Shown one piece after another: positions 14,757 through 64,000 of a stretch of DNA of 64,000 nucleotides. How positions within the stretch are numbered: the first letter of the stretch is position 1; each line of letters starts with the position of its first letter. The notes under the pieces are model-generated. The model was given only the letters and a program-made list of their open reading frames with translations. It was not told where the DNA came from and made no database searches. Source of the stretch: Phorcus lineatus (lineage: Eukaryota; Mollusca; Gastropoda; Trochida; Trochidae); contig OV121082.1 in the NCBI GenBank assembly GCA_921293015.1, positions 51,232,971 to 51,296,970 on the forward strand. Direction: 5' to 3'. The position numbers were made by a program, and so were the translations under genes.

Positions 14757-14760
14757 CATG
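14757..14760. repeat. Target-site duplication (CATG), right copy
   Basis: Matches the CATG at 5084-5087 and shows that the two flanks were once contiguous. Confidence 0.8.
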
Positions 14761-14962
14761 CCTGCTTGTCACATATTTGAAATCAACAGACCTTAAAAAA
14801 CTCCGCAAACTGGACATGAGTGTGCTGAAACGTTTTTCAAGAAATCACTTCAACAAAAAATCCAAGAAAAAATTTCTCCACGGGAGAGGTGAAGACATTA
14901 CCCATTCAGGTTGCCTTTTTGGGCTCTTGAAAGTTTATCGACACACAGATTATCTTCAATGA
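14758..14962 (+). pseudogene. 215-aa array gene, 3' fragment cut by the retrotransposon
   Basis: Sequence downstream of the right LTR matches the plus array gene from about residue 150 (ACHIF) to its stop. The first ~60 bp are clearly more diverged than other copies. Between the ACHIF and KLDMSV segments there is a TAA stop in the upper frame and a net +1 base, so the copy is dead even without the insertion. From about 14810 it resembles the normal gene. Its AATAAA at 15035-15040 is retained. Confidence 0.85.
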
Positions 14963-15379
14963 AGTCGTGTTCATTCCAGTGATGTAAATGAATGCTCATA
15001 TGTTTGACAGTGCTAATATACTGATGTTGATACCAATAAAGCATTTATATTTATTCGAGTCTCCGTCTCCTTTTTGGATATGTCCAAGGTTTTATATCAG
15101 AATGTCAATACACGTTTTCATAATTTACTTAACCTTCTGCTGAAGTAAAACATGCATTTACACCGTGCATTCATTTACACCGTGAATGCACAAAAAAGTT
15201 GAATCAAGAATATACTTTCGATAGAAGAATGCAGTGTCAATCTGGTAGGTAACAAAAACAAATACCTTTCTCTTATCTTGAGATTGTTTTATTCAAAATC
15301 AACAATAGGTAGATAGTCAGACAAACTATAAACACATAAAGCACTTTAAACATATCAAACATAACAAAATGGGATGCAG

Positions 15380-15889
15380 TTAGTCCCTAACATTTAAACA
15401 CAGTCCTTGTTTCAGCAGTAACTGCAGCATCGTCGTCCTTCTTTTGGATGATAGGTTGTCAGGCTCTGTCAACTTGCTTTGGGCTTTTTTCCTGGGCAAT
15501 CTGTTTTTCCTAACAAATGTAACTCTTCGTGGACTGAATCGTCTGAATACGTCAGTGTCCTTTTTAATTTTCTTGAGGGGACTACCGCAGCAGTCCTCTG
15601 TCTTCTTCAAAGTTTGAAGCAATAGCCTGCTCTTGCGTCTTTCTTCTTCTCCCTTCTCACTTTCTAAGGTCATATGAACTTTTTTCTGAATATAACCATG
15701 GTCGATACTTGAACATTTGGCCGGCTCAACGTTTGCCAGTTCCTTTGATGTGATGAATGATAGAAGATGTTCTATGGTATGGTTAAGAATGTTGGTTGAC
15801 GTGTGTTCAAAACTGTCGTGTTCTTCGTCATCATCGCTCATTGAGTAGTTAACTAGAGGAAAGTAATCTTCATGAAATGAAATATCCAT
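15380..15889 (-). CDS. 169-aa minus-strand array protein, copy 1 (promoter displaced)
   Basis: Coding sequence intact. It differs from the array consensus at residue 58 (Lys, not Asn) and 131 (Leu, not Ser). A 1.34 kb insert at 15966-17309 separates its leader from the TATA box, now at 17321-17330, so this copy is probably silent or driven by the insert. See the entry at 19363 for the protein. Confidence 0.75.
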   Translation of the reverse strand: MDISFHEDYFPLVNYSMSDDDEEHDSFEHTSTNILNHTIEHLLSFITSKELANVEPAKCSSIDHGYIQKKVHMTLESEKGEEERRKSRLLLQTLKKTEDCCGSPLKKIKKDTDVFRRFSPRRVTFVRKNRLPRKKAQSKLTEPDNLSSKRRTTMLQLLLKQGLCLNVRD

Positions 15890-15965
15890 ACCAAATGTTA
15901 CAGATGGATTTGCACACAGACAAAAGTACGATTTCGAGGTTATTTCCAATGAGATGGCAATAATT

Positions 15966-17309
15966 AAGGATTCAGCAATTTTGCTGAATCCTTATTGTTA
16001 TTGGCGTGTTTTATTTTTTTATTTATTTATTTTTTTTTTTCCACCGATTTTGTGGACCCGATTTAGCCCAAACCGCTAAAGCTACAACAGCCAAACTTGG
16101 CAGTCTGGTAGAACTTCATGAGAAGGGGTTCTAATAAGCTTTTGGGCTTAATCGGATTAAACGTTAAAGGCACAGTACCAATCAAATTTTCAAAAATTAA
16201 CATGGGATTTTTTTTCAAAATGCACTTAGAGACCTGAAACTTTTTTTAAACGATAGGCAAATACATTTGGAGCAAAAAAGTAAATCATGGCGACTTCGTA
16301 GCATGCATACTTACGCCGCCATATTACTTTTTTTGACTTTTTGAAATTTTCGGACCCCACGCACCTTTGAGAATCTTCTCCTCCGAAGATACTAGCATCT
16401 CAGAGCTGAAAGTTACATATGTTGTAGCTGAAGTACTGAGGAGAAAAGGATACTCTAAATTGTTCCTCAAACTTTAATACTTTTTACTCAGCAACCCTTC
16501 GAAGTCGGGCGACTTAGCACATGTGAGCATGTTTAAGGGGCGATAACTCAAAAAGTTAGACTCACAACTGCATCATTTTCACAGGAATGTGAAACCACTA
16601 TGGGCACTTTACAAATCAATAAAAACATTGGTCGCGAACAGTCATTTCCGTTCACAATACTCGATCAAAATTGGTAAAAAGTACCCTTTTAAAAATTAAC
16701 ATGGGCTAATTTTTCAAAATGCACTTAGAGACCTGAAACTTGTTTTGAATGAAGCGTACTAACAGTATCAACAAAAAAGTCAATCATGACGATTTCATAA
16801 CTATTATAGTTTTTTGGCATTATCAACTTATTTGTTCCAGAAATAGGTTTTCATTATTCCACAATTCTTGTGAACACGATTCAGCCAAAACCGCTCAAGC
16901 TATTACAGCCAAACTTGCCAGTCTGATAGAACTGCATGAGACGAAGCCACAATAAGCTTTTGGGCTTAATCGGCTTAAGTGTTAAAGGCACAGTACGATC
17001 CAAAGTTCGAAAAATTAACATGGGAATTTTTTTCAAAATGCACTTAGAGACTTGTAATTTGATTTAAACTATAGGCAATTACATCACGAGCAAAAAAGCA
17101 AATCACGGCGAATTCCTAAGTAGCATACTTTTTGCACATTATCAACTTCTTTGCAATAATCGCAATTTCCAGATAAAACATGCCGCTGAAGCTTAATGCA
17201 TGCACCAATCTTCATGAAATTTTCAGTGAAGCTAGCTAACATTACTATCTTTGTACTGAATGTGCTTTTTATGCGCTGAATCCTTTTGTCGTCGCTTGCG
17301 ACTATATTT
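15966..17309. mobile_element. Hairpin-ended non-autonomous insert (Helentron/MITE-like)
   Basis: 1,344 bp present only in this unit, between 'caataatt' and 'cttgttctag', which adjoin in all other units. The left end is a perfect 28-bp hairpin, AAGGATTCAGC.. to ..GCTGAATCCTT (15966-15993). The right end repeats GCTGAATCCTT (about 17273-17286), then a small GTCGC-TT-GCGAC stem and TATATTT. A T/A-rich microsatellite lies at about 16008-16040. Internally, about 16048-16310 recurs at 16866-17133, with a third partial copy near 16676-16830. No clear target duplication is seen and both junctions are T-rich. Terminal hairpins, T-rich junctions and internal repeats fit Helentron-associated or 'pearl'-like bivalve elements, but a TIR element (MITE) is an alternative. 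It has no coding capacity. Confidence 0.75.
16048..17133 (+). repeat. Internal direct repeats of the insert
   Basis: Copy 1 (about 16048-16310) and copy 2 (about 16866-17133) share 'cagccaaactt.ccagtctg.tagaact.catgaga', 'aagcttttgggcttaatcgg' and 'ttcaaaatgcacttagaga'. The last motif occurs a third time near 16711. The period is about 818 bp between the two full copies. Confidence 0.75.
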
Positions 17310-18240
17310 CTTGTTCTAGTCTTTTATATAAAATGATTAGACACTGATTGACTTGCTCAATAAATGTCAGGGATTCAATCAGCAACCAATCAGTGTTGAG
17401 GTATTTGGTAATTGACACGCCCACAGACTGATTACTTCTAAAAACATCTTGAGTCGGCCTGATCGTTTGACCCAAGGAAAACATGAACAAGCACTACTCT
17501 TCTGCGTCAATACGAACAAGGTACTGCTCCACATCATGACACCATGACATAACCTTGTAGTTAGATGGTTGTATACTTTCTCGTCAGAAGCAATCAATTA
17601 TTTATCGGGACAATATTGGTAAAATTTGAATTTGAGTGATTTTATTTACATTGATAGTGGTTTACTCTTTTCCATAGGAGGGCAACCACATGTTTAGAGT
17701 TTAGCTCTACAACCTTTTTTACAACGCATGCTGAGTTAGGATGTCAAATGGCGGTTTCAGGGACCAACTCAAATAGTAAAGATTGTTTTTGAAGAGGATA
17801 GTTGCAATTCCTTCCGTAGTAGAGACCTGTCAAATATAAACAAATGCAATGTAAGATGTTATGTTTGAATTGGTATCTAAAGAACTAGAATACCTTTCGC
17901 TAACTAGACGTGTCAAACAGCTCGAAACTTCAAAGAAGTAAAACATGTGTCTTTTACTTTGTAAACACCACAGATTGGATTTAAATTTTCGCTGAATACT
18001 TCAGTGCAAAATGTAAGGCTATATTCAAACAGAATGCTTTCTGGGATTTCTTGTTTAATCCAATCTACGTCAATCTATACAGCTACGTTAAGAGCACCAG
18101 AACCATATCATGTGTTTTCATAACAGCGGAGGCAGACAAAAGATTCCAATCTGTCTTTATTGATGCTTCTAAACGAGACTGAATGCATTTGAATAAGACT
18201 ACAAACTTTCGTAAACAAGCAATGCCCTTTGGCTATGAAA
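17310..18240. promoter_or_regulatory. Divergent promoter region of the first complete unit
   Basis: The canonical region between the TATA box of the minus gene (17321-17330) and that of the plus gene (18246-18252). The conserved ORFs here (for example minus-strand 17302-17490, 17379-17597 and 18108-18299) are judged non-coding, because similar stretches are deleted in other units without affecting the genes. Confidence 0.6.
18146..18150 (+). promoter_or_regulatory. CCAAT box upstream of the plus gene
   Basis: CCAAT about 96 bp upstream of the TATA box, in the usual distance range for NF-Y. It is repeated in every complete unit. Function inferred. Confidence 0.4.
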
Positions 18241-18245
18241 AAGAA

Positions 18246-18252
18246 TATAAAA
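18246..18252 (+). promoter_or_regulatory. TATA box of the plus gene
   Basis: TATAAAA about 50 bp before the ATG of the 215-aa gene. With a start site ~30 bp downstream the 5' leader would be only about 15-25 nt. The same sequence precedes every plus-gene copy, including those in the short units. Confidence 0.7.
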
Positions 18253-18297
18253 CTTTGGCATTGCTGACCTAGGTGACATATACCATTAAACCTCAAC

Positions 18298-18945
18298 ATG
18301 AAACGCTCCTCGGACGTTATCTACACCTACTTGGATAAAAGTAAAAGCGAATTTCAAAGGATTCCAAAGTTCAACTTTTCAGAAAATGGCAATCGATTAG
18401 TGGACTATTCTTTCACCGATGTCAGTGACAGTGATGACGACTGTAGTGAAGATGGCATTTGCAAAATTGACCCACTTCAAAAGCTTCAATCGGACTTAGT
18501 CATTTTAAAATCAAAACTGAGTAGTACGCAAAAAAACCGGTTTTCACAGTTGATGAAGTCAAAGCAGGGAGGAAGTCTGAGAATGAGAGCTTCTAGAAAG
18601 CTAAAGATTGAAGAAGACAAGGAAAAGCTAAGAAATGAAGATGTCCTGCAACGGCTGAACACTGCCTTTTCTGAAGCAAAAAGCATCCCTTTTATCGATT
18701 CTTCATCGCCGATTGTAAAGAAACTAGGTGTAAATGGCAGCAAGTCTGCGTGTCACATATTTGACACCAACAGACCTTCCAAAAAACGCAAACTGGACAT
18801 GAGTGTGCTGAAACGTTTTTCAAGAAAACACTTCAACAAAAAATCCAAGAAAAAACTTCTCCACGGGAGAGGTGAAGACATTACCCATTCAGGTTGCCTT
18901 TTTGGGCTCTTGAAAGTTTATCGACACACAGATTATCTTCAATGA
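18298..18945 (+). CDS. 215-aa nuclear-type protein of the array, reference copy (unknown family)
   Basis: I do not recognise this protein. Seen in order: a block F27-x-E-x4-L34-V-D-Y-S38; an acidic, Ser-rich patch at 41-52 (DVSDSDDDCSED); two likely amphipathic helices rich in K, E and L (about 58-92 and 97-128); and a strongly basic tail with PSKKRKLD at 160-167, close to a classical nuclear localisation signal, VLKRFS at 170-175 and KKSKKK at 181-186. No signal peptide or membrane segment. It is intronless, with the ATG in a good context (A at -3), a TATA box close upstream and AATAAA about 75 nt after the stop. A nuclear or chromatin role is inferred from composition only. The F..LV.YS and P.KK.K.D..V..RFS blocks also occur in the facing minus-strand protein, so the two are probably paralogs. 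This copy has the consensus protein. Confidence 0.85.
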   Translation: MKRSSDVIYTYLDKSKSEFQRIPKFNFSENGNRLVDYSFTDVSDSDDDCSEDGICKIDPLQKLQSDLVILKSKLSSTQKNRFSQLMKSKQGGSLRMRASRKLKIEEDKEKLRNEDVLQRLNTAFSEAKSIPFIDSSSPIVKKLGVNGSKSACHIFDTNRPSKKRKLDMSVLKRFSRKHFNKKSKKKLLHGRGEDITHSGCLFGLLKVYRHTDYLQ

Positions 18946-19017
18946 AGTCGTGTTCATTCCAGTGATGTAAATGGATGCTCATATGTTTGACAGTGCTAAT
19001 ATACTGATGTTGATACC

Positions 19018-19023
19018 AATAAA
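19018..19023 (+). terminator. Poly(A) signal of the plus gene
   Basis: AATAAA about 73 nt after the stop codon, followed by a T/G-rich stretch ('cctttttggatatgtcc') suited to a downstream element. Present in all units. Confidence 0.8.
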
Positions 19024-19147
19024 GCATTTATATTTATTCGAGTCTCCGTCTCCTTTTTGGATATGTCCAAGGTTTTATATCAGAATGTCAATACACGTTT
19101 TCATAATTTACTTAACCTTCTGCTGAAGTAAAACATGCATTTACACC

Positions 19148-19174
19148 GTGCATTCATTTACACCGTGAATGCAC
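19148..19174. other. Hairpin between the convergent genes
   Basis: Perfect 9-bp arms GTGCATTCA / TGAATGCAC around a 9-nt loop, midway between the two poly(A) signals. It overlaps a 17-bp direct repeat (ACACCGTG..). One repeat is lost in the units starting at 47115, 54002, 58250 and 60872, which shortens the hairpin. It could help separate the two transcription units; this is inference. Confidence 0.6.
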
Positions 19175-19270
19175 AAAAAAGTTGAATCAAGAATATACTT
19201 TCGATAGAAGAATGCAGTGTCAATCTGGTAGGTAACAAAAACAAATACCTTTCTCTTATCTTGAGATTGT

Positions 19271-19276
19271 TTTATT
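19271..19276 (-). terminator. Poly(A) signal of the minus gene
   Basis: AATAAA on the minus strand about 87 nt after that gene's stop. With the plus-gene signal at 19018 it leaves roughly 200-250 bp between the two 3' ends, so normally processed transcripts need not overlap. Confidence 0.8.
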
Positions 19277-19362
19277 CAAAATCAACAATAGGTAGATAGT
19301 CAGACAAACTATAAACACATAAAGCACTTTAAACATATCAAACATAACAAAATGGGATGCAG

Positions 19363-19872
19363 TTAGTCCCTAACATTTAAACACAGTCCTTGTTTCAGCA
19401 GTAACTGCAGCATCGTCGTCCTTCTTTTGGATGATAGGTTGTCAGGCTCTGTCAAGTTGCTTTGGGCTTTTTTCCTGGGCGATCTGTTTTTCCTAACAAA
19501 TGTAACTCTTCGTGGACTGAATCGTCTGAATACGTCAGTGTCCTTTTTAATTTTCTTGAGGGGACTACCGCAGGAATCCTCTGTCTTCTTCAAAGTTTGA
19601 AGCAATAGCCTGCTCTTGCGTCTTTCTTCTTCTCCCTTCTCACTTTCTAAGGTCATATGAACTTTTTTCTGAATATAACCATGGTCGATACTTGAACATT
19701 TGGCCGGCTCAACGTTTGCCAGTTCCTTTGATGTGATGAATGATAGAAGATGTTCTATGGTATGGTTAAGAATGTTGGTTGACGTGTGTTCAAAACTGTC
19801 GTGTTCTTCGTCATCATCGCTCATTGAGTAGTTAACTAGAGGAAAGTAATCTTCATGAAATGAAATATCCAT
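19363..19872 (-). CDS. 169-aa minus-strand array protein, reference copy (unknown family, RVxF motif)
   Basis: Not recognised. From the first ATG: a block F5-x-E-x4-L12-V-N-Y-S16; an acidic run S18-DDDEEHD; a helical, charged middle; then P104-LKKIKKD111, V114-F-R-R-F-S119 and R122-V-T-F125, followed by a basic tail. RVTF fits the protein phosphatase 1 docking consensus ([RK]-[VI]-x-[FW]) with basic flanks, so a PP1-targeting role is possible. No signal peptide or membrane segment; no intron. The frame stays open 20 codons upstream to a TTG at 19930-19932, but that lies at the start site expected from the TATA box. The ATG used here has G at -3 and +4. One unit (27150) has a stop in the upstream stretch. 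This copy differs from consensus at 58 (Lys), 100 (Ser) and 139 (Asn). Confidence 0.82.
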   Translation of the reverse strand: MDISFHEDYFPLVNYSMSDDDEEHDSFEHTSTNILNHTIEHLLSFITSKELANVEPAKCSSIDHGYIQKKVHMTLESEKGEEERRKSRLLLQTLKKTEDSCGSPLKKIKKDTDVFRRFSPRRVTFVRKNRSPRKKAQSNLTEPDNLSSKRRTTMLQLLLKQGLCLNVRD

Positions 19873-19969: not shown

Positions 19970-19979
19970 AAATGATTAG

Positions 19980-20035: not shown

Positions 20036-20065
20036 TGAGGTATTTGGTAATTGACACGCCCACAG

Positions 20066-20067: not shown

Positions 20068-20806
20068 AGTTAGATGGTTGTATACTTTCTCGTCAGAAGC
20101 AATCAATTATTTATCGGGACAATATTGGTAAAATTTGAATTTGAGTGATTTTATTTACATTGATAGTGGTTTACTATTTTCCATAGGAGGGCAACCACAT
20201 GTTTAGAGTTTAGCTCTACAACCTTTTTTACAACGCATGCTGAGTTAGGATGTCAAATGGCGGTTTCAGGGACCAACTCCAATAGTAAAGATTGTTTTTG
20301 AAGAGGATAGTTGCAATTCCTTCCGTAGTAGAGACCTGTCAAATATAGACAAATGCAATGTAAGATGTTAAGTTTGAATTGGTATCTAAAGAACTAGAAT
20401 ACCTTTCGCTAACTAGACGTGTTAAACAGCTCGAAACTTTAAAGAAGTAAAACATGTGTCTTTTACTTTGTAAACACCACAGATTGGATTTAAATTTTCG
20501 CTGAATACTTCAGTGCAAAATGTAAGGCTATATTCAAACAGAATGCTTTCTGGGATTTCTTGTTTAATCCAATCTACGTCAATCTATACAGCTACGTTAA
20601 GAGCACCAGAACCATATCATGTGTTTTCATAACAGCGGAGGCAGACAAAAGATTCCAATCTGTCTTTATTGATGCTTCTAAACGAGACTGAATGCATTTG
20701 AATAAGACTACAAACTTTCGTAAACAAGCAATGCCCTTTGGCTATGAAAAAGAATATAAAACTTTGGCATTGCTGACCTAGGTGACATATACCATTAAAC
20801 CTCAAC

Positions 20807-21454
20807 ATGAAACGCTCCTCGGACGTTATCTACACCTACTTGGATAAAAGTAAAAGCGAATTTCAAAGGATTCCAAAGTTCAACTTTTCAGAAAATGGCA
20901 ATCGATTAGTGGACTATTCTTTCACCGATGTCAGTGACAGTGATGACGACTGTAGTGAAGATGGCATTTGCAAAATTGACCCACTTCAAAAGCTTCAATC
21001 GGACTTAGTCATTTTAAAATCAAAACTGAGTAGTACGCAAAAAAACCGGTTTTCACAGTTGATGAAGTCAAAGCAGGGAGGAAGTCTGAGGATGAGAGCT
21101 TCTAGAAAGCTAAAGATTGAAGAAGACAAGGAAAAGCTAAGAAATGAAGATGTCCTGCAACGGCTGAACACTGCCTTTTCTGAAGCAAAAAGCATCCCTT
21201 TTATCGATTCTTCATCGCCGATTGTAAAGAAACTAGGTGTAAATGGCAGCAAGTCTGCGTGTCACATATTTGACACCAACAGACCTTCCAAAAAACGCAA
21301 ACTGGACATGAGTGTGCTGAAACGTTTTTCAAGAAAACACTTCAACAAAAAATCCAAGAAAAAACTTCTCCACGGGAGAGGTGAAGACATTACCCATTCA
21401 GGTTGCCTTTTTGGGCTCTTGAAAGTTTATCGACACACAGATTATCTTCAATGA
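20807..21454 (+). CDS. 215-aa array protein, copy 2
   Basis: Same protein as the reference copy. It has a silent AGG (not AGA) at Arg96. Its upstream divergent region is the shortened one (130-bp deletion), but the TATA box and the proximal promoter are unchanged. Confidence 0.85.
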   Translation: MKRSSDVIYTYLDKSKSEFQRIPKFNFSENGNRLVDYSFTDVSDSDDDCSEDGICKIDPLQKLQSDLVILKSKLSSTQKNRFSQLMKSKQGGSLRMRASRKLKIEEDKEKLRNEDVLQRLNTAFSEAKSIPFIDSSSPIVKKLGVNGSKSACHIFDTNRPSKKRKLDMSVLKRFSRKHFNKKSKKKLLHGRGEDITHSGCLFGLLKVYRHTDYLQ

Positions 21455-21871
21455 AGTCGTGTTCATTCCAGTGATGTAAATGGATGCTCATATGTTTGAC
21501 AGTGCTAATATACTGATGTTGATACCAATAAAGCATTTATATTTATTCGAGTCTCCGTCTCCTTTTTGGATATGTCCAAGGTTTTATATCAGAATGTCAA
21601 TACACGTTTTCATAATTTACTTAACCTTCTGCTGAAGTAAAACATGCATTTACACCGTGCATTCATTGACACCGTGAATGCACAAAAAAGTTGAATCAAG
21701 AATATACTTTCGATAGAAGAATGCAGTGTCAATCTGGTAGGTAACAAAAACAAATACCTTTCTCTTATCTTGAGATTGTTTTATTCAAAATCAACAATAG
21801 GTAGATAGTCAGACAAACTATAAACACATAAAGCACTTTAAACATATCAAACATAACAAAATGGGATGCAG

Positions 21872-22381
21872 TTAGTCCCTAACATTTAAACACAGTCCTT
21901 GTTTCAGCAGTAACTGCAGCATCGTCGTCCTTCTTTTGGATGATAGGTTGTCAGGCTCTGTCAACTTGCTTTGGGCTTTTTTCCTGGGCGATCTGTTTTT
22001 CCTAACAAATGTAACTCTTCGTGGACTGAATCGTCTGAATACGTCAGTGTCCTTTTTAATTTTCTTGAGGGGACTACCGCAGGAATCCTCTGTCTTCTTC
22101 AAAGTTTGAAGCAATAGCCTGCTCTTGCGTCTTTCTTCTTCTCCCTTCTCACTTTCTAAGGTCATATGAACTTTTTTCTGAATATAACCATGGTCGATAC
22201 TTGAACATTTGGCCGGCTCAACGTTTGCCAGTTCCTTTGATGTGATGAATGATAGAAGATGTTCTATGGTATGGTTAAGAATGTTGGTTGACGTGTGTTC
22301 AAAACTGTCGTGTTCTTCGTCATCATCGCTCATTGAGTAGTTAACTAGAGGAAAGTAATCTTCATGAAATGAAATATCCAT
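21872..22381 (-). CDS. 169-aa array protein, copy 3
   Basis: Intact; Lys58 and Ser100, otherwise consensus. Shares these left-side variants with the 19363 copy, so the leftmost units form a sub-lineage. Confidence 0.82.
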   Translation of the reverse strand: MDISFHEDYFPLVNYSMSDDDEEHDSFEHTSTNILNHTIEHLLSFITSKELANVEPAKCSSIDHGYIQKKVHMTLESEKGEEERRKSRLLLQTLKKTEDSCGSPLKKIKKDTDVFRRFSPRRVTFVRKNRSPRKKAQSKLTEPDNLSSKRRTTMLQLLLKQGLCLNVRD

Positions 22382-23445
22382 ACCAAATGTTACAGATGGA
22401 TTTGCACACAGACAAAAGTACGATTTCGAGGTTATTTCCAATGAGATGGCAATAATTCTTGTTCTAGTCTTTTATATAGAATGATTAGACACTGATTGAC
22501 TTGCTCAATAAATGTCAGGGATTCAATCAGCAACCAATCAGTGTTGAGGTATTTGGTAATTGACACGCCCACAGACTGATTACTTCTAAAAACATCTTGA
22601 GTCGGCCTGATCGTTTGACCCAAGGAAAACATGAACAAGCACTACTCTTCTGCGTCAATACGAACAAGGTACTGCTCCACATCATGACACCATGACATAA
22701 CCTTGTAGTTAGATGGTTGTATACCTTCTCGTCAGAAGCAATCAAAGATTTATCGGGACAATATTGGTAAAATTTGAATTTGAGTGATTTTATTTACATT
22801 GATAGTGGTTTACTATTTTCCATAGGAGGGCAACCACATGTTTAGAGTTTAGCTCTACAACCTTTTTTACAACGCATGCTGAGTTAGGATGTCAAATGGC
22901 GGTTTCAGGGACCAACTCCAATAGTAAAGATTGTTTTTGAAGAGGATAGTTGCAATTCCTTCCGTAGTAGAGACCTGTCAAATATAGACAAATGCAATGT
23001 AAGATGTTATGTTTGAATTGGTATCTAAAGAACTAGAATACCTTTCGCTAACTAGACGTGTCAAACAGCTCGAAACTTTAAAGAAGTAAAACATGTGTCT
23101 TTTACTTTGTAAACACCACAGATTGGATTTAAATTTTCGCTGAATACTTCAGTGCAAAATGTAAGGCTATATTCAAACAGAATGCTTTCTGGGATTTCTT
23201 GTTTAATCCAATCTACGTCAATCTATACAGCTACGTTAAGAGCACCAGAACCATATCATGTGTTTTCATAACAGCGGAGGCAGACAAAAGATTCCAATCT
23301 GTCTTTATTGATGCTTCTAAACGAGACTGAATGCATTTGAATAAGACTACAAACTTTCGTAAACAAGCAATGCCCTTTGGCTATGAAAAAGAATATAAAA
23401 CTTTGGCATTGCTGACCTAGGTGACATATACCATTAAACCTCAAC

Positions 23446-52375: not shown

Positions 52376-53023
52376 ATGAAACGCTCCTCGGACGTTATCT
52401 ACACCTACTTGGATAAAAGTAAAAGCGAATTTCAAAGGATTCCAAAGTTCAACTTTTCAGAAAATGGCAATCGATTAGTGGACTATTCTTTCACCGATGT
52501 CAGTGACAGTGATGACGACTGTAGTGAAGATGGCATTTGCAAAATTGACCCACTTCAAAAGCTTCAATCGGACTTAGTCATTTTAAAATCAAAACTGAGT
52601 AGTACGCAAAAAAACCGGTTTTCACAGTTGATGAAGTCAAAGCAGGGAGGAAGTCTGAGAATGAGAGCTTCTAGAAAGCTAAAGATTGAAGAAGACAAGG
52701 AAAAGCTAAGAAATGAAGATGTCCTGCAACGGCTGAACACTGCCTTTTCTGAAGCAAAAAGCATCCCTTTTATCGATTCTTCATCGCCGATTGTAAAGAA
52801 ACTAGGTGTAAATGGCAGCAAGTCTGCGTGTCACATATTTGACACCAACAGACCTTCCAAAAAACGCAAACTGGACATGAGTGTGCTGAAACGTTTTTCA
52901 AGAAAACACTTCAACAAAAAATCCAAGAAAAAACTTCTCCACGGGAGAGGTGAAGACATTACCCATTCAGGTTGCCTTTTGGGGCTCTTGAAAGTTTATC
53001 GACACACAGATTATCTTCAATGA
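52376..53023 (+). CDS. 215-aa array protein, copy 14 (F202L, minus gene absent)
   Basis: Intact, with F202L. It keeps its TATA box and poly(A) signal, but its partner minus gene is deleted from this 1,626-bp unit. It can therefore be made without a partner in cis. Confidence 0.85.
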   Translation: MKRSSDVIYTYLDKSKSEFQRIPKFNFSENGNRLVDYSFTDVSDSDDDCSEDGICKIDPLQKLQSDLVILKSKLSSTQKNRFSQLMKSKQGGSLRMRASRKLKIEEDKEKLRNEDVLQRLNTAFSEAKSIPFIDSSSPIVKKLGVNGSKSACHIFDTNRPSKKRKLDMSVLKRFSRKHFNKKSKKKLLHGRGEDITHSGCLLGLLKVYRHTDYLQ

Positions 53024-53388
53024 AGTCGTGTTCATTCCAGTGATGTAAATGGATGCTCATATGTTTGACAGTGCTAATATACTGATGTTGATACCAATAA
53101 AGCATTTATATTTATTCGAGTCTCCGTCTCCTTTTTGGATATGTCCAAGGTTTTATATCAGAATGTCAATACACGTTTTCATAATTTACGTAACCTTCTG
53201 CTGAAGTAAAACATGCATTTACACCGTGCATTCATTGACACCGTGAATGCACAAAAAAGTTGAATCAAGAATATACTTTCGATAGAAGAATGCAGTGTAA
53301 ATCTGGTAGGTAACAAAAACAAATACCTTTCTCTTATCTTGAGATTGTTTTATTCAAAATCAACAATAGGTAGATAGTCAGACAAACT

Positions 53389-53390
53389 AC
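53389..53390. other. Junction of the 1,013-bp deletion that removes the minus gene (first)
   Basis: 'agacaaacta' from the 3' UTR of the minus gene, just beyond its poly(A) signal, is joined to 'ccacatgttt' from the middle of the divergent region. The whole minus gene and its promoter are lost, while the plus gene's 3' end and the next plus promoter are kept. No microhomology is obvious at the joint. Confidence 0.9.
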
Positions 53391-54001
53391 CACATGTTTA
53401 GAGTTTAGCTCTACAACCTTTTTTACAACGCATGCTGAGTTAGGATGTCAAATGGCGGTTTCAGGGACCAACTCCAATAGTAAAGATTGTTTTTGAAGAG
53501 GATAGTTGCAATTCCTTCCGTAGTAGAGACCTGTCAAATATAGACAAATGCAATGTAAGATGTTAAGTTTGAATTGGTATCTAAAGAACTAGAATACCTT
53601 TCGCTAACTAGACGTGTCAAACAGCTCGAAACTTTAAAGAAGTAAAACATGTGTCTTTTACTTTGTAAACACCACAGATTGGATTTAAATTTTCGCTGAA
53701 TACTTCAGTGCAAAATGTAAGGCTATATTCAAAGAGAATGCTTTCTGGGATTTCTTGTTTAATCCAATCTACGTCAACCTATACAGCTACGTTAAGAGCA
53801 CCAGAACCATATCATGTGTTTTCATAACAGCGGAGGCAGACAAAAGATTCCAATCTGTCTTTATTGATGCTTCTAAACGAGACTGAATGCATTTGAATAA
53901 GACTACAAACTTTCGTAAACAAGCAATGCCCTTTGGCTATGAAAAAGAATATAAAACTTTGGCATTGCTGACCTAGGTGACATATACCATTAAACCTCAA
54001 C

Positions 54002-54649
54002 ATGAAACGCTCCTCGGACGTTATCTACACCTACTTGGATAAAAGTAAAAGCGAATTTCAAAGGATTCCAAAGTTCAACTTTTCAGAAAATGGCAATCGA
54101 TTAGTGGACTATTCTTTCACCGATGTCAGTGACAGTGATGACGACTGTAGTGAAGATGGCATTTGCAAAATTGACCCACTTCAAAAGCTTCAATCGGACT
54201 TAGTCATTTTAAAATCAAAACTGAGTGGTACGCAAAAAAACCGGTTTTCACAGTTGATGAAGTCAAAGCAGGGAGGAAGTCTGAGAATGAGAGCTTCTAG
54301 AAAGCTAAAGATTGAAGAAGACAAGGAAAAGCTAAGAAATGAAGATGTCCTGCAACGGCTGAACACTGCCTTTTCTGAAGCAAAAAGCATCCCTTTTATC
54401 GATTCTTCATCGCCGATTGTAAAGAAACTAGGTGTAAATGGCAGCAAGTCTGCGTGTCACATATTTGACACCAACAGACCTTCCAAAAAACGCAAACTGG
54501 ACATGAGTGTGCTGAAACGTTTTTCAAGAAAACACTTCAACAAAAAATCCAAGAAAAAACTTCTCCACGGGAGAGGTGAATCCATTACCCATTCAGGTTG
54601 CCTTTTTGGGCTCTTGAAAGTTTATCGACACACAGATTATCTTCAATGA
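54002..54649 (+). CDS. 215-aa array protein, copy 15 (S76G, D194S)
   Basis: Ser76 to Gly and Asp194 to Ser (the same two-base change as at 47115). Related to the 47115 copy by D194S and the 17-bp deletion, and to the 58250 copy by S76G. Confidence 0.85.
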   Translation: MKRSSDVIYTYLDKSKSEFQRIPKFNFSENGNRLVDYSFTDVSDSDDDCSEDGICKIDPLQKLQSDLVILKSKLSGTQKNRFSQLMKSKQGGSLRMRASRKLKIEEDKEKLRNEDVLQRLNTAFSEAKSIPFIDSSSPIVKKLGVNGSKSACHIFDTNRPSKKRKLDMSVLKRFSRKHFNKKSKKKLLHGRGESITHSGCLFGLLKVYRHTDYLQ

Positions 54650-55049
54650 AGTCGTGTTCATTCCAGTGATGTAAATGGATGCTCATATGTTTGACAGTGC
54701 TAATATACTGATGTTGATACCAATAAAGCATTTATATTTATTCGAGTCTCCGTCTCCTTTTTGGATATGTCCAAGGTTTTATATCAGAATGTCAATACAC
54801 GTTTTCATAATTTACTTAACCTTCTGCTGAAGTAAAACATGCATTTACACCGTGAATGCACAAAAAAGTTGAATCAAGAATATACTTTCGATAGAAGAAT
54901 GCAGTGTCAATCTGGTAGGTAACAAAAACAAATACCTTTCTCTTATCTTGAGATTGTTTTATTCAAAATCAACAATAGGTAGATAGTCAGACAAACTATA
55001 AACACATAAAGCACTTTAAACATATCAAACATAACAAAATGGGATGCAG

Positions 55050-55559
55050 TTAGTCCCTAACATTTAAACACAGTCCTTGTTTCAGCAGTAACTGCAGCAT
55101 CGTCGTCCTTCTTTTGGATGATAGGTTGTCAGGCTCTGTCAACTTGCTTTGGGCTTTTTTCCTGGGCAATCTGTTTTTCCTAACAAATGTAACTCTTCGT
55201 GGACTGAATCGTCTGAATACGTCAGTGTCCTTTTTAATTTTCTTGAGGGGACTACCGCAGCAATCCTCTGTCTTCTTCAAAGTTTGAAGCAATAGCCTGC
55301 TCTTGCGTCTTTCTTCTTCTCCCTTCTCACTTTCTAAGGTCATATGAACTTTTTTCTGAATATAACCATGGTCGATACTTGAACAGTTGGCCGGCTCAAC
55401 GTTTGCCAGTTCCTTTGATGTGATGAATGATAGAAGATGTTCTATGGTATGGTTAAGAATGTTGGTTGACGTGTGTTCAAAACTGTCGTGTTCTTCGTCA
55501 TCATCGCTCATTGAGTAGTTAACTAGAGGAAAGTAATCTTCATGAAATGAAATATCCAT
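55050..55559 (-). CDS. 169-aa array protein, copy 15
   Basis: Leu131; leader change as in the 48163 copy. It lies in the long half of the first higher-order repeat. Confidence 0.82.
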   Translation of the reverse strand: MDISFHEDYFPLVNYSMSDDDEEHDSFEHTSTNILNHTIEHLLSFITSKELANVEPANCSSIDHGYIQKKVHMTLESEKGEEERRKSRLLLQTLKKTEDCCGSPLKKIKKDTDVFRRFSPRRVTFVRKNRLPRKKAQSKLTEPDNLSSKRRTTMLQLLLKQGLCLNVRD

Positions 55560-56623
55560 ACCAAATGTTACAGATGGATTTTCACACAGACAAAAGTACG
55601 ATTTCGAGGTTATTTCCAATGAGATGGCAATAATTCTTGTTCTAGTCTTTTATATAAAATGATTAGACACTGATTGACTTGCTCAATAAATGTCAGGGAT
55701 TCAATCAGCAACCAATCAGTGTTGAGGTATTTGGTAATTGACACGCCCACAGACTGATTACTTCTAAAAACATCTTGAGTCGGCCTGATCGTTTGACCCA
55801 AGGAAAACATGAACAAGCACTACTCTTCTGCGTCAATACGAACAAGGTACTGCTCCACATCATGACACCATGACATAACCTTGTAGTTAGATGGTTGTAT
55901 ACTTTCTCGTCAGAAGCAATCAAAGATTTATCGGGACAATATTGGTAAAATTTGAATTTGAGTGATTTTATTTACATTGATAGTGGTTTACTATTTTCCA
56001 TAGGAGGGCAACCACATGTTTAGAGTTTAGCTCTACAACCTTTTTTACAACGCATGCTGAGTTAGGATGTCAAATGGCGGTTTCAGGGACCAACTCCAAT
56101 AGTAAAGATTGTTTTTGAAGAGGATAGTTGCAATTCCTTCCGTAGTAGAGACCTGTCAAATATAGACAAATGCAATGTAAGATGTTAAGTTTGAATTGGT
56201 ATCTAAAGAACTAGAATACCTTTCGCTAACTAGACGTGTCAAACAGCTCGAAACTTTAAAGAAGTAAAACATGTGTCTTTTACTTTGTAAACACCACAGA
56301 TTGGATTTAAATTTTCGCTGAATACTTCAGTGCAAAATGTAAGGCTATATTCAAACAGAATGCTTTCTGGGATTTCTTGTTTAATCCAATCTACGTCAAT
56401 CTATACAGCTACGTTAAGAGCACCAGAACCATATCATGTGTTTTCATAACAGCGGAGGCAGACAAAAGATTCCAATCTGTCTTTATTGATGCTTCTAAAC
56501 GAGACTGAATGCATTTGAATAAGACTACAAACTTTCGTAAACAAGCAATGCCCTTTGGCTATGAAAAAGAATATAAAACTTTGGCATTGCTGACCTAGGT
56601 GACATATACCATTAAACCTCAAC

Positions 56624-57271
56624 ATGAAACGCTCCTCGGACGTTATCTACACCTACTTGGATAAAAGTAAAAGCGAATTTCAAAGGATTCCAAAGTTCAA
56701 CTTTTCAGAAAATGGCAATCGATTAGTGGACTATTCTTTCACCGATGTCAGTGACAGTGATGACGACTGTAGTGAAGATGGCATTTGCAAAATTGACCCA
56801 CTTCAAAAGCTTCAATCGGACTTAGTCATTTTAAAATCAAAACTGAGTAGTACGCAAAAAAACCGGTTTTCACAGTTGATGAAGTCAAAGCAGGGAGGAA
56901 GTCTGAGAATGAGAGCTTCTAGAAAGCTAAAGATTGAAGAAGACAAGGAAAAGCTAAGAAATGAAGATGTCCTGCAACGGCTGAACACTGCCTTTTCTGA
57001 AGCAAAAAGCATCCCTTTTATCGATTCTTCATCGCCGATTGTAAAGAAACTAGGTGTAAATGGCAGCAAGTCTGCGTGTCACATATTTGACACCAACAGA
57101 CCTTCCAAAAAACGCAAACTGGACATGAGTGTGCTGAAACGTTTTTCAAGAAAACACTTCAACAAAAAATCCAAGAAAAAACTTCTCCACGGGAGAGGTG
57201 AAGACATTACCCATTCAGGTTGCCTTTTGGGGCTCTTGAAAGTTTATCGACACACAGATTATCTTCAATGA
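56624..57271 (+). CDS. 215-aa array protein, copy 16 (F202L, minus gene absent)
   Basis: F202L, short unit; matches the 52376 copy 4,248 bp to the left. Confidence 0.85.
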   Translation: MKRSSDVIYTYLDKSKSEFQRIPKFNFSENGNRLVDYSFTDVSDSDDDCSEDGICKIDPLQKLQSDLVILKSKLSSTQKNRFSQLMKSKQGGSLRMRASRKLKIEEDKEKLRNEDVLQRLNTAFSEAKSIPFIDSSSPIVKKLGVNGSKSACHIFDTNRPSKKRKLDMSVLKRFSRKHFNKKSKKKLLHGRGEDITHSGCLLGLLKVYRHTDYLQ

Positions 57272-57636
57272 AGTCGTGTTCATTCCAGTGATGTAAATGG
57301 ATGCTCATATGTTTGACAGTGCTAATATACTGATGTTGATACCAATAAAGCATTTATATTTATTCGAGTCTCCGTCTCCTTTTTGGATATGTCCAAGGTT
57401 TTATATCAGAATGTCAATACACGTTTTCATAATTTACGTAACCTTCTGCTGAAGTAAAACATGCATTTACACCGTGCATTCATTGACACCGTGAATGCAC
57501 AAAAAAGTTGAATCAAGAATATACTTTCGATAGAAGAATGCAGTGTAAATCTGGTAGGTAACAAAAACAAATACCTTTCTCTTATCTTGAGATTGTTTTA
57601 TTCAAAATCAACAATAGGTAGATAGTCAGACAAACT

Positions 57637-57638
57637 AC
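57637..57638. other. Junction of the 1,013-bp deletion (second)
   Basis: Same breakpoints as at 53389/53390, exactly 4,248 bp further on. Confidence 0.9.
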
Positions 57639-58249
57639 CACATGTTTAGAGTTTAGCTCTACAACCTTTTTTACAACGCATGCTGAGTTAGGATGTCAAA
57701 TGGCGGTTTCAGGGACCAACTCCAATAGTAAAGATTGTTTTTGAAGAGGATAGTTGCAATTCCTTCCGTAGTAGAGACCTGTCAAATATAGACAAATGCA
57801 ATGTAAGATGTTAAGTTTGAATTGGTATCTAAAGAACTAGAATACCTTTCGCTAACTAGACGTGTCAAACAGCTCGAAACTTTAAAGAAGTAAAACATGT
57901 GTCTTTTACTTTGTAAACACCACAGATTGGATTTAAATTTTCGCTGAATACTTCAGTGCAAAATGTAAGGCTATATTCAAACAGAATGCTTTCTGGGATT
58001 TCTTGTTTAATCCAATCTACGTCAACCTATACAGCTACGTTAAGAGCACCAGAACCATATCATGTGTTTTCATAACAGCGGAGGCAGACAAAAGATTCCA
58101 ATCTGTCTTTATTGATGCTTCTAAACGAGACTGAATGCATTTGAATAAGACTACAAACTTTCGTAAACAAGCAATGCCCTTTGGCTATGAAAAAGAATAT
58201 AAAACTTTGGCATTGCTGACCTAGGTGACATATACCATTAAACCTCAAC

Positions 58250-58897
58250 ATGAAACGCTCCTCGGACGTTATCTACACCTACTTGGATAAAAGTAAAAGC
58301 GAATTTCAAAGGATTCCAAAGTTCAACTTTTCAGAAAATGGCAATCGATTAGTGGACTATTCTTTCACCGATGTCAGTGACAGTGATGACGACTGTAGTG
58401 AAGATGGCATTTGCAAAATTGACCCACTTCAAAAGCTTCAATCGGACTTAGTCATTTTAAAATCAAAACTGAGTGGTACGCAAAAAAACCGGTTTTCACA
58501 GTTGATGAAGTCAAAGCAGGGAGGAAGTCTGAGAATGAGAGCTTCTAGAAAGCTAAAGATTGAAGAAGACAAGGAAAAGCTAAGAAATGAAGATGTCCTG
58601 CAACGGCTGAACACTGCCTTTTCTGAAGCAAAAAGCATCCCTTTTATCGATTCTTCATCGCCGATTGTAAAGAAACTAGGTGTAAATGGCAGCAAGTCTG
58701 CGTGTCACATATTTGACACCAACAGACCTTCAAAAAAACGCAAACTGGACATGAGTGTGCTGAAATGTTTTTCAAGAAAACACTTCAACAAAAAATCCAA
58801 GAAAAAACTTCTCCACGGGAGAGGTGAAGACATTACCCATTCAGGTTGCCTTTTTGGGCTCTTGAAAGTTTATCGACACACAGATTATCTTCAATGA
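58250..58897 (+). CDS. 215-aa array protein, copy 17 (S76G, R173C)
   Basis: Last full-length reading frame. Ser76 to Gly and, unusually, Arg173 to Cys inside the shared VLKRFS block. Ser161 is TCA. The poly(A) region has 'aaagcatatatat', also seen in the next, broken copy, which therefore shares its ancestry. Confidence 0.83.
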   Translation: MKRSSDVIYTYLDKSKSEFQRIPKFNFSENGNRLVDYSFTDVSDSDDDCSEDGICKIDPLQKLQSDLVILKSKLSGTQKNRFSQLMKSKQGGSLRMRASRKLKIEEDKEKLRNEDVLQRLNTAFSEAKSIPFIDSSSPIVKKLGVNGSKSACHIFDTNRPSKKRKLDMSVLKCFSRKHFNKKSKKKLLHGRGEDITHSGCLFGLLKVYRHTDYLQ

Positions 58898-59297
58898 AGT
58901 CGTGTTCATTCCAGTGATGTAAATGGATGCTCATATGTTTGACAGTGCTAATATACTGATGTTGATACCAATAAAGCATATATATTTATTCGAGTCTCCG
59001 TCTCCTTTTTGGATATGTCCAAGGTTTTATATCAGAATGTCAATACACGTTTTCATAATTTACTTAACCTTCTGCTGAAGTAAAACATGCATTTACACCG
59101 TGAATGCACAAAAAAGTTGAATCAAGAATATACTTTCGATAGAAGAATGCAGTGTCAATCTGGTAGGTAACAAAAACAAATACCTTTCTCTTATCTTGAG
59201 ATTGTTTTATTCAAAATCAACAATAGGTAGATAGTCAGACAAACTATAAACACATAAAGCACTTTAAACATATCAAACATAACAAAATGGGATGCAG

Positions 59298-59807
59298 TTA
59301 GTCCCTAACATTTAAACACAGTCCTTGTTTCAGCAGTAACTGCAGCATCGTCGTCCTTCTTTTGGATGATAGGTTGTCAGGCTCTGTCAACTTGCTTTGG
59401 GCTTTTTTCCTGGGCGATCTGTTTTTCCTAACAAATGTAACTCTTCGTGGACTGAATCGTCTGAATACGTCAGTGTCCTTTTTAATTTTCTTGAGGGGAC
59501 TACCGCAGGAATCCTCTGTCTTCTTCAAAGTTTGAAGCAATAGCCTGCTCTTGCGTCTTTCTTCTTCTCCCTTCTCACTTTCTAAGGTCATATGAACCTT
59601 TTTCTGAATATAACCATGGTCGATACTTGAACAGTTGGCCGGCTCAACGTTTGCCAGTTCCTTTGATGTGATGAATGATAGAAGATGTTCTATGGTATGG
59701 TTAAGAATGTTGGTTGACGTGTGTTCAAAACTGTCGTGTTCTTCGTCATCATCGCTCATTGAGTAGTTAACTAGAGGAAAGTAATCTTCATGAAATGAAA
59801 TATCCAT
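59298..59807 (-). CDS. 169-aa array protein, copy 16
   Basis: Ser100, otherwise consensus. Its Ser100 is elsewhere found only at the left end (19363, 21872), a sign of long-range shuffling. Confidence 0.82.
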   Translation of the reverse strand: MDISFHEDYFPLVNYSMSDDDEEHDSFEHTSTNILNHTIEHLLSFITSKELANVEPANCSSIDHGYIQKKVHMTLESEKGEEERRKSRLLLQTLKKTEDSCGSPLKKIKKDTDVFRRFSPRRVTFVRKNRSPRKKAQSKLTEPDNLSSKRRTTMLQLLLKQGLCLNVRD

Positions 59808-60871
59808 ACCAAATGTTACAGATGGATTTGCACACAGACAAAAGTACGATTTCGAGGTTATTTCCAATGAGATGGCAATAATTCTTGTTCTAGTCTTTTA
59901 TATAAAATGATTAGACACTGATTGACTTGCTCAATAAATGTCAGGGATTCAATCAGCAACCAATCAGTGTTGAGGTATTTGGTAATTGACACGCCCACAG
60001 ACTGATTACTTCTAAAAACATCTTGAGTCGGCCTGATCGTTTGACCCAAGGAAAACATGAACAAGCACTACTCTTCTGCGTCAATACGAACAAGGTACTG
60101 CTCCACATCATGACACCATGACATAACCTTGTAGTTAGATGGTTGTATACTTTCTCGTCAGAAGCAATCAAAGATTTATCGGGACAATATTGGTAAAATT
60201 TGAATTTGAGTGATTTTATTTACATTGATAGTGGTTTACTATTTTCCATAGGAGGGCAACCACATGTTTAGAGTTTAGCTCTACAACCTTTTTTACAACG
60301 CATGCTGAGTTAGGATGTCAAATGGCGGTTTCAGGGACCAACTCCAATAGTAAAGATTGTTTTTGAAGAGGATAGTTGCAATTCCTTCCGTAGTAGAGAC
60401 CTGTCAAATATAGACAAATGCAATGTAAGATGTTAAGTTTGAATTGGTATCTAAAGAACTAGAATACCTTTCGCTAACTAGACGTGTCAAACAGCTCGAA
60501 ACTTTAAAGAAGTAAAACATGTGTCTTTTACTTTGTAAACACCACAGATTGGATTTAAATTTTCGCTGAATACTTCAGTGCAAAATGTAAGGCTATATTC
60601 AAAGAGAATGCTTTCTGGGATTTCTTGTTTAATCCAATCTACGTCAATCTATACAGCTACGTTAAGAGCACCAGAACCATATCATGTGTTTTCATAACAG
60701 CGGAGGCAGACAAAAGATTCCAATCTGTCTTTATTGATGCTTCTAAACGAGACTGAATGCATTTGAATAAGACTACAAACTTTCGTAAACAAGCAATGCC
60801 CTTTGGCTATGAAAAAGAATATAAAACTTTGGCATTGCTGACCTAGGTGACATATACCATTAAACCTCAAC

Positions 60872-61519
60872 ATGAAACGCTCCTCGGACGTTATCTACAC
60901 CTACTTGGATAAAAGTAAAAGCGAATTTCAAAGGATTCCAAAGTTCAACTTTTCAGAAAATGGCAATCGATTAGTGGACTATTCTTTCACCGATGTCAGT
61001 GACAGTGATGACGACTGTAGTGAAGATGGCATTTGCAAAATTGACCCACTTCAAAAGCTTCAATCGGACTTAGTCATTTTAAAATCAAAACTGAGTAGTA
61101 CGCAAAAAAACCGGTTTTCACAGTTGATGAAGTCAAAGCAGGGAGGAAGTCTGAGAATGAGAGCTTCTAGAAAGCTAAAGATTGAAGAAGACAAGGAAAA
61201 GCTAAGAAATGAAGATGTCCTGCAACGGCTGAACACTGCCTTTTCTGAAGCAAAAAGCATCCCTTTTATCGATTCTTCATCGCCGATTGTAAAGAAACTA
61301 GGTGTAAATGGCAGCAAGTCTGCGTGTCACATATTTGACACCAACAGACCTTAAAAAAAACGCAAACTGGACATGAGTGTGCTGAAATGTTTTTCAAGAA
61401 AACACTTCAACAAAAAATCCAAGAAAAAACTTCTCCACGGGAGAGGTGAAGACATTACCCATTCAGGTTGCCTTTTTGGGCTCTTGAAAGTTTATCGACA
61501 CACAGATTATCTTCAATGA
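60872..61519 (+). pseudogene. 215-aa array gene with nonsense codon at 161
   Basis: TCA at codon 161 became TAA (61352-61354) within the A-run, leaving 160 aa. This cuts off the nuclear-signal-like SKKRKLD and the basic tail. R173C downstream links it to the 58250 copy. The promoter and poly(A) signal look intact, so a truncated product could be made unless the mRNA is unstable. Confidence 0.85.
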
Positions 61520-61919
61520 AGTCGTGTTCATTCCAGTGATGTAAATGGATGCTCATATGTTTGACAGTGCTAATATACTGATGTTGATACCAATAAAGCA
61601 TATATATTTATTCGAGTCTCCGTCTCCTTTTTGGATATGTCCAAGGTTTTATATCAGAATGTCAATACACGTTTTCATAATTTACTTAACCTTCTGCTGA
61701 AGTAAAACATGCATTTACACCGTGAATGCACAAAAAAGTTGAATCAAGAATATACTTTCGATAGAAGAATGCAGTGTCAATCTGGTAGGTAACAAAAACA
61801 AATACCTTTCTCTTATCTTGAGATTGTTTTATTCAAAATCAACAATAGGTAGATAGTCAGACAAACTATAAACACATAAAGCACTTTAAACATATCAAAC
61901 ATAACAAAATGGGATGCAG

Positions 61920-62394
61920 TTAGTCCCTAACATTTAAACACAGTCCTTGTTTCAGCAGTAACTGCAGCATCGTCGTCCTTCTTTTGGATGATAGGTTGTC
62001 AGGCTCTGTCAACTTGCTTTGGGCTTTTTTCCTGGGCAATCTGTTTTTCCTAACAAATGTAACTCTTCGTGGACTGAATCGTCTGAATACGTCAGTGTCC
62101 TTTTTAATTTTCTTGAGGGGACTACCGCAGCAATCCTCTGTCTTCTTCAAAGTTTGAAGCAATAGCCTGCTCTTGCGTCTTTCTTCTTCTCCCTTCTCAC
62201 TTTCTAAGGTCATATGAACTTTTTTCTGAATATAACCATGGTCGATACTTGAACAGTTGGCCGGCTCAACGTTTGCCAGTTCCTTTGATGTGATGAATGA
62301 TAGAAGATGTTCTATGGTATGGTTAAGAATGTTGGTTGACGCTCATTGAGTAGTTAACTAGAGGAAAGTAATCTTCATGAAATGAAATATCCAT
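61920..62394 (-). pseudogene. 169-aa array gene broken by a 35-bp deletion
   Basis: 35 bp are missing at 62340/62341, just after residue 18. The frame is lost before the acidic run, and the PP1 motif and basic tail cannot be made from the normal start. The rest is intact, with Leu131. The opposing plus gene in this unit is also broken, so the whole unit is dead. Confidence 0.88.
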
Positions 62395-63458
62395 ACCAAA
62401 TGTTACAGATGGATTTTCACACAGACAAAAGTACGATTTCGAGGTTATTTCCAATGAGATGGCAATAATTCTTGTTCTAGTCTTTTATATAAAATGATTA
62501 GACACTGATTGACTTGCTCAATAAATGCCAGGGATTCAATCAGCAACCAATCAGTGTTGAGGTATTTGGTAATTGACACGCCCACAGACTGATTACTTCT
62601 AAAAACATCTTGAGTCGGCCTGATCGTTTGACCCAAGGAAAACATGAACAAGCACTACTCTTCTGCGTCAATACGAACAAGGTACTGCTCCACATCATGA
62701 CACCATGACATAACCTTGTAGTTAGATGGTTGTATACTTTCTCGTCAGAAGCAATCAAAGATTTATCGGGACAATATTGGTAAAATTTGAATTTGAGTGA
62801 TTTTATTTACATTGATAGTGGTTTACTATTTTCCATAGGAGGGCAACCACATGTTTAGAGTTTAGCTCTACAACCATTTTTACAACGCATGCTGAGTTAG
62901 GATGTCAAATGGCGGTTTCAGGGACCAACTCCAATAGTAAAGATTGTTTTTGAAGAGGATAGTTGCAATTCCTTCCGTAGTAGAGACCTGTCAAATATAG
63001 ACAAATGCAATGTAAGATGTTAAGTTTGAATTGGTATCTAAAGAACTAGAATACCTTTCGCTAACTAGACGTGTCAAACAGCTCGAAACTTTAAAGAAGT
63101 AAAACATGTGTCTTTTACTTTGTAAACACCACAGATTGGATTTAAATTTTCGCTGAATACTTCAGTGCAAAATGTAAGGCTATATTCAAACAGAATGCTT
63201 TCTGGGATTTCTTGTTTAATCCAATCTACGTCAATCTATACAGCTACGTTAAGAGCACCAGAACCATATCATGTGTTTTCATAACAGCGGAGGCAGACAA
63301 AAGATTCCAATCTGTCTTTATTGATGCTTCTAAACGAGACTGAATGCATTTGAATAAGACTACAAACTTTCGTAAACAAGCAATGCCCTTTGGCTATGAA
63401 AAAGAATATAAAACTTTGGCATTGCTGACCTAGGTGACATATACCATTAAACCTCAAC

Positions 63459-64000
63459 ATGAAACGCTCCTCGGACGTTATCTACACCTACTTGGATAAA
63501 AGTAAAAGCGAATTTCAAAGGATTCCAAAGTTCAACTTTTCAGAAAATGGCAATCGATTAGTGGACTATTCTTTCACCGATGTCAGTGACAGTGATGACG
63601 ACTGTAGTGAAGATGGCATTTGCAAAATTGACCCACTTCAAAAGCTTCAATCGGACTTAGTCATTTTAAAATCAAAACTGAGTAGTACGCAAAAAAACCG
63701 GTTTTCACAGTTGATGAAGTCAAAGCAGGGAGGAAGTCTGAGAATGAGAGCTTCTAGAAAGCTAAAGATTGAAGAAGACAAGGAAAAGCTAAGAAATGAA
63801 GATGTCCTGCAACGGCTGAACACTGCCTTTTCTGAAGCAAAAAGCATCCCTTTTATCGATTCTTCATCGCCGATTGTAAAGAAACTAGGTGTAAATGGCA
63901 GCAAGTCTGCGTGTCACATATTTGACACCATCAGACCTTCAAAAAAAACGCAAACTGGACATGAGTGTGCTGAAACGTTTTTCAAGAAAACACTTCAACA
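63459..64000 (+). pseudogene. 215-aa array gene with frameshift, cut by the window edge
   Basis: An extra A in the run at codons 161-163 (A8 instead of A6/A7) shifts the frame before the basic tail; Asn158 is also Ile. The shifted frame has no stop before position 64000, where the window ends. TATA box and ATG are normal. A single-base error in a homopolymer should be excluded by re-reading. Confidence 0.8.

Follow-up and report, generated by a model that had tools for sequence, protein, structure and literature searches.

A homogenised tandem array of a convergent gene pair in Phorcus lineatus and its family of small, basic proteins

We analysed a 64,000-nucleotide stretch of the Phorcus lineatus genome (contig OV121082.1), referred to below as the window, which from ~14,762 to beyond its right end carries head-to-tail units of ~2.6 kb built around two small convergent genes, gene A on the forward strand (215 residues) and gene B on the reverse strand (169 residues). 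The reading that we tentatively favour, at somewhat less than an even chance, is a histone-like dosage array whose products form a new family of small, basic regulators that are probably nuclear and carry an invariant cyclin-dependent kinase (CDK)-type site.

A preliminary description of this DNA had proposed tandem ~2.6-kb units that remain open to the right, and blastn of one unit against the window bore this out: the tandem array is real (14762 to 64000), adjoins a long terminal repeat (LTR) retrotransposon at its left edge and is open on its right side. In the reference unit (20807 to 23445, 2639 bp from one gene A start to the next), gene A lies at 20807 to 21454 on the forward strand (P0001) and gene B at 21872 to 22381 on the reverse strand (P0002), with 417 bases between their 3' ends and 1064 bases from the 5' end of B to the 5' end of the next A. 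Gene A is present in 20 copies, 19 with start codons (18298 to 63459) and one truncated at its 5' end at the left edge of the array (14762 to 14962, forward strand; 95% identical by blastn). Seventeen of the 20 have an intact 215-residue frame, the full-length starts other than the reference copy being at 18298, 23446, 26085, 28723, 31362, 34001, 36613, 39225, 41864, 44476, 47115, 49737, 52376, 54002, 56624 and 58250 (all forward). One further copy (60872 to 61519, forward) has a premature stop at codon 161, and the last (63459 to 64000, forward) loses its frame near the 3' part and continues past the end of the window. Gene B has 17 copies, of which 16 are intact; besides the reference copy, these have their low coordinates at 15380, 19363, 24511, 27150, 29788, 32427, 35066, 37678, 40290, 42929, 45541, 48163, 50802, 55050 and 59298 (all reverse). 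The broken copy (61920 to 62394, reverse) has lost its frame through an internal deletion, and overall 33 of the 37 gene copies are intact. The genes had been called intronless, which holds for the coding frames; a leader could still contain an intron.

The 18 start-to-start lengths were 2639 (seven units), 2622 (three), 2612 (three) and 1626 (two), with one unit each of 2638, 2587 and 2509 bp. The earlier count of at least 19 units thus stands for gene A but not for the pair, as blastn found no gene B in the two 1626-bp units (52376 to 54001 and 56624 to 58249). The block 52376 to 56623, made of a 1626-bp and a 2622-bp unit, is repeated as 56624 to 60871, so the right part of the array seems to have grown through block duplication.

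The mean difference between units was 0.32%, with values from 0 to 0.62% (18 start-to-start units including the two short ones, aligned columns only, gaps ignored), and two unit pairs were identical across the aligned columns. Variable positions numbered 10 of 648 in A, 7 of 510 in B, 4 of 417 in the 3'-3' spacer and 16 of 1064 in the 5'-5' spacer. The genes are no more alike than the spacers, which indicates that homogenisation keeps the units alike. Nonsynonymous and synonymous changes stood at 7:3 among 18 A copies and 5:3 among 16 B copies when each base change was scored singly against the commonest codon. The broken B, cut A and truncated A copies were left out of this count; the premature-stop A copy was included, with the two changes in its stop codon scored separately. 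The corresponding per-site ratios within the array were 0.61 for A and 0.43 for B, from changes too few to tell from neutral.

The TATA boxes, CCAAT boxes and separate poly(A) signals of the preliminary description were all recovered. In 19 of 19 copies of gene A a TATA box, ATATAAAA, starts at –53 (20754 to 20761 in the reference unit, forward), and in 16 of 17 copies of gene B another, TATATAAA, starts at –97 (22471 to 22478, reverse); the sole exception is the first copy, which has an insertion of other DNA there. AATAAA follows the gene A stop by 72 bases in 18 of 18 copies (21527 to 21532, forward) and was present for gene B in the reference unit, the one unit examined (21780 to 21785, reverse; TTTATT on the forward strand). 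The promoters diverge from the CCAAT-rich 5'-5' spacer (22382 to 23445, 1064 bp), which we scanned in one unit for ten motifs, comparing counts with shuffles. CCAAT occurred 8 times on both strands compared to 2.7 in shuffles, TTTGAA 5 times compared to 2.1 expected, and sites like the cAMP response element (CRE) twice compared to 0.5. The heat-shock element was absent from the scanned spacer (1.7 expected), as were CArG, AP-1 and NF-kB-like sites. The CCAAT and TTTGAA excess, two to three times expectation, weakly fits promoters of the cell-cycle type. Separately, a 17-base motif, CATGCATT.ACACCGTG, forms ~2.4 repeats in the 3'-3' spacer at 21643 to 21682 and recurs at 14 similar places (15 in the window), being absent from some units.

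Relatives were sought in 5.8 billion proteins with A, with B and then with a B profile. A retrieved three relatives and B five; the profile returned the same five plus P0013 (E 7e-15), P0014 (E 3e-14), P0015 (E 0.014) and P0016 (E 0.09), the last being the uncharacterized protein LOC121378347 of the gastropod Gigantopelta aegis, on an 81.6-Mb sequence. The searches with both proteins that the preliminary description had advised yielded three A-type and nine B-type proteins, and the one named relative agrees with a mollusc-side affinity. With a profile built without P0015 and P0016, these two scored E 1.6e-5 and 9.1e-10, respectively, at the same database size. A-type proteins scored between 17.5 and 21.4 bits, which at this size means E values of 55 or higher. 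No shuffled sequence exceeded 9.2 bits, whether among the 2000 made from P0015 and P0016 or the 1000 made from A-type proteins. A and B together with P0005 to P0016 have in colinear order an LV[DN]Y[STP] motif, a charged stretch and a basic RF[ST] motif, and we assign them on these motifs to a new protein family. LV[DN]Y[STP] is present in 12 of the 14 members, P0011 and P0012 beginning further downstream. FRRFSPRR is found in 10 of 10 B-type proteins and is the sole invariant stretch among them. Its A-type counterpart KRF[ST]RK, with no proline there, is found in 3 of 4, namely those reaching that region; P0007 is cut short ahead of the basic motif and so lacks RF[ST]. The LV[DN]Y[STP] motif occurs twice in the distant relatives P0014 and P0015, which suggests a short linear binding motif able to multiply.

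A-type and B-type relatives occur pairwise on contigs of equal size (2637, 2642 and 2667 bases), all of them unit-sized. We infer that each such pair lies on one contig holding a single unit, as would result from assembling a circle or from collapsing a tandem array. This suggests conservation, in other sources, of the linked pair and perhaps of the whole array. A B relative alone was found on a 2826-base contig and on a 594-base contig. P0005 is predicted with 21 extra N-terminal residues. Back-translated and compared with the DNA upstream of gene A, TATA box included, this extension scored 43 of at most 63; none of 1000 shuffles exceeded 17, and none of 1000 stretches taken from the left part of the window exceeded 16. 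We believe that the extension is most likely promoter and leader DNA that a gene finder took for protein, and thus that the promoter and leader of gene A are most likely conserved between sources. The same test of the gene B leader against the P0008 extension was weaker (29 of at most 81; shuffle maximum 20, random-window maximum 21). Pattern searches for the DNA of the relatives gave 256 and 41 matches in IMG/VR and 231 in GTDB contigs, none of them confirmed. Among the matches listed from titles and abstract beginnings of the open-licence literature, where LOC121378347 and RRFSPRR were also sought, we found no description of the family.

All 14 members, fragments included, are basic (isoelectric point 8.8 to 10.5) and hydrophilic, and the A and B proteins are probably disordered and probably nuclear. 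FRRFSPRR combines two overlapping consensus sites, S-P-x-R for CDK (in full) and RRxS for basophilic kinases. The earlier view of a histone-cluster-like layout with no histone and no known family held up, as Pfam returned no match for A or B at E values up to 10. Across the 14 members, Pfam matched eight families in one member each (best Tub, E 0.0038), none common to two members and none histone. The best matches elsewhere were E 0.059 in NCBIfam, E 0.2 in PHROGs for A and B, and E 0.087 for A and 0.76 for B among PDB sequences, with none for the B profile; we take all of these to be chance. Histones are rejected, no histone fold or linker-histone domain being among the Pfam matches of A, B or the 14 members. 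A basic helix-loop-helix look of the A-type RRLK...LNDAF was dropped, since Pfam finds nothing. For LVDYSxSD, a putative role as a SUMO-interaction motif was also considered. We also rejected the RVxF motif of protein phosphatase 1 regulators as a family trait; a pattern match lies beside FRRFSPRR in only 5 of 10 B-type proteins and none lies there in A-type proteins.

We amend one point of the preliminary description, in which A and B stand simply as two proteins: profile comparison gives good support to their being, most likely, ancient paralogs. With distant B relatives included, hhalign aligned the two profiles with a probability of 94.9% (E 4.2e-8), and the score of 54.5 compared to at most 20.8 in 300 column shuffles, its sole control (0 of 300 as good). 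BLASTP of A against B gave E 0.25. Profiles without the distant relatives gave a probability of 41%, or 26% with trimmed columns, and the trimmed-column score was reached by 0 of 400 column shuffles. In both proteins, LV[DN]YS with its acidic residues is followed by a leucine-rich segment, then by a charged stretch and finally by a basic motif around RFS. Every distant relative found is B-type; these were sought with B, so that A as the derived form is only a suggestion.

With the basic, hydrophilic proteins, the CDK-type site in FRRFSPRR and the CCAAT- and TTTGAA-containing spacer taken together, the most probable reading is a nuclear regulator made in bulk and linked to the cell cycle. The system would have begun with the inverted duplication of one ancestral gene to give the convergent pair, followed by head-to-tail amplification, with unequal exchange or conversion keeping the units alike. 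Both genes carry a TATA box and a poly(A) signal of their own, with promoters that point away from each other in the shared CCAAT-rich spacer. A and B share a plan in which an acidic-aromatic N-terminal motif (LVDYSFSD) is followed by a charged stretch, probably helical, then by a basic motif and by a short tail at the C terminus, and they may bind the same nuclear partner. Phosphorylation by CDK at FRRFSPRR might switch B in the cell cycle, and A, with its proline-free KRF[ST]RK, would be blind to CDK. The high copy number would then furnish protein in bulk when transcription time is short, in the cleavage embryo or germline, a time and place suggested by the layout and by analogy with histone and pmar1-like arrays. 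We regard as doubtful a wider version, in which molluscs hold a second, non-histone class of histone-style repeat. Its convergent genes would encode paralogous nuclear proteins gated by the cell cycle, many copies would supply them in bulk during the first cleavages or in the germline, and the two would provide a single activity in one form that phosphorylation can switch and one that is constitutive.

Several observations weigh against the dosage-array reading. Variation in the genes is as high as in the spacers, and the changes within the array give no clear purifying selection, which is neither shown nor excluded. Several gene copies are broken, and the two units starting at 52376 and 56624 carry gene A alone. 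The CCAAT and TTTGAA excess is modest given ten motifs scanned, and the CDK and kinase consensuses are short motifs taken from general knowledge. In the paralogy comparison, shuffling in blocks of 15 columns reached the weaker, trimmed-column score in 13 of 400 trials, which indicates that this score leans on local motifs.

Other explanations account for parts of the same evidence. One is that A and B are ampliconic conflict genes that oppose each other, in which case the array would have expanded via meiotic drive or gamete competition. The many copies in homogenised units, the units that carry A alone and the differing motifs of the paralogs, one with a proline-directed site and one without, are compatible with this. 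We consider it unlikely, as the motifs have stayed rigidly constant across wide distances (FRRFSPRR in all ten), whereas conflict genes usually change fast, and the pair seems retained in other sources. Less probable is a multi-copy set of somatic response genes of the hsp70 or immediate-early type, built for fast and strong induction in adult tissue; single-exon frames, TATA boxes in nearly all copies and the two CRE-like sites would suit such genes, but the spacer scan gave none of the response elements named above other than these, and neither protein has a chaperone or known response-gene domain.

The array could also be a gene-bearing satellite, spreading and homogenising by unequal exchange around a pair that was once functional, with most copies now passive. 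Genes as variable as spacers, broken copies and gene-less units would be expected of it; the intactness of 33 of 37 copies and the conservation of both proteins and of the A leader in other sources are not, and we rate it lower again. It is very improbable that the array is the integrated concatemer of a circular virus or viral satellite, with the unit-length contigs elsewhere as its free circles. The unit length, the two convergent genes and these contigs do recall small circular viruses, but A and B have no replication or capsid domain and at best the PHROG match of E 0.2, none of the stretches from the two IMG/VR scans was confirmed as a relative, and one relative sits on the 81.6-Mb G. aegis sequence.

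To the left of the array, at 5088 to 14757 on the reverse strand, lies the LTR retrotransposon, which matches Ty3-type capsid, protease, reverse transcriptase and chromo-domain and adjoins the array without being part of it. Its LTRs differ at 1 of 872 positions, and the element is very young. CATG on both sides, read from the element ends, looks like an intact 4-base target-site duplication. The DNA to its left is not array DNA, and the insertion therefore seems to have hit a site only a few bases from the array edge. In this left flank, 2498 to 3128 and 4138 to 4838 form a diverged tandem duplicate with pieces 72 to 86% identical. The first unit carries a foreign insertion of ~1.3 kb (15966 to 17303) that replaces the TATA region of gene B. 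It has diverged internal repeats (16030 to 16312 and 16848 to 17130, 82% identical). No Rfam family or transfer RNA was found in the window.

To our knowledge, large homogenised tandem arrays are uncommon among protein genes. Those of genes other than histones have tended to mark extreme product need or genetic conflict. A two-paralog array of an undescribed, motif-rigid family is a handle on lineage-restricted regulators and on what some animals, besides histones, require in bulk. The unit-length contigs suggest that assembly from short reads may reduce an array of this kind to a single unit, and this could explain why the array was overlooked. Among single proteins, G. aegis LOC121378347 (P0016) resembles gene B in carrying PLVDYSFSD, a charged stretch, FRRFSPRR and a C-terminal LCF in the same order, although the two are only 28% identical. 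Among arrays, the sea urchin hbox12/pmar1/micro1 family (PMC5370098) is likewise clustered head to tail, with 6 to 22 copies in seven individuals, and is used in specific blastomeres of the early embryo; unlike the array here, it encodes homeodomain proteins from two exons and one intron, with one gene per repeat. The primate ELOA3 retrogene cluster (PMC10664989) also consists of tandem, homogenised protein-gene copies, in that case of a nuclear-regulator gene and conserved among related species. Its products are Elongin A homologs of known activity, with a single gene per repeat; no sequence relation to A or B came to notice, none having been sought. Tandem histone clusters, of which bivalves offer examples (PMC4106214, PMC3003622), differ from this array in their products and 3' ends: the array proteins are not histones, and the genes have poly(A) signals, with no match to the histone 3' stem-loop consensus on either strand of the window. 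In common with these clusters, the array has small intronless genes in opposed orientation with TATA and CCAAT boxes, and homogenised tandem units that bear genes on both strands.

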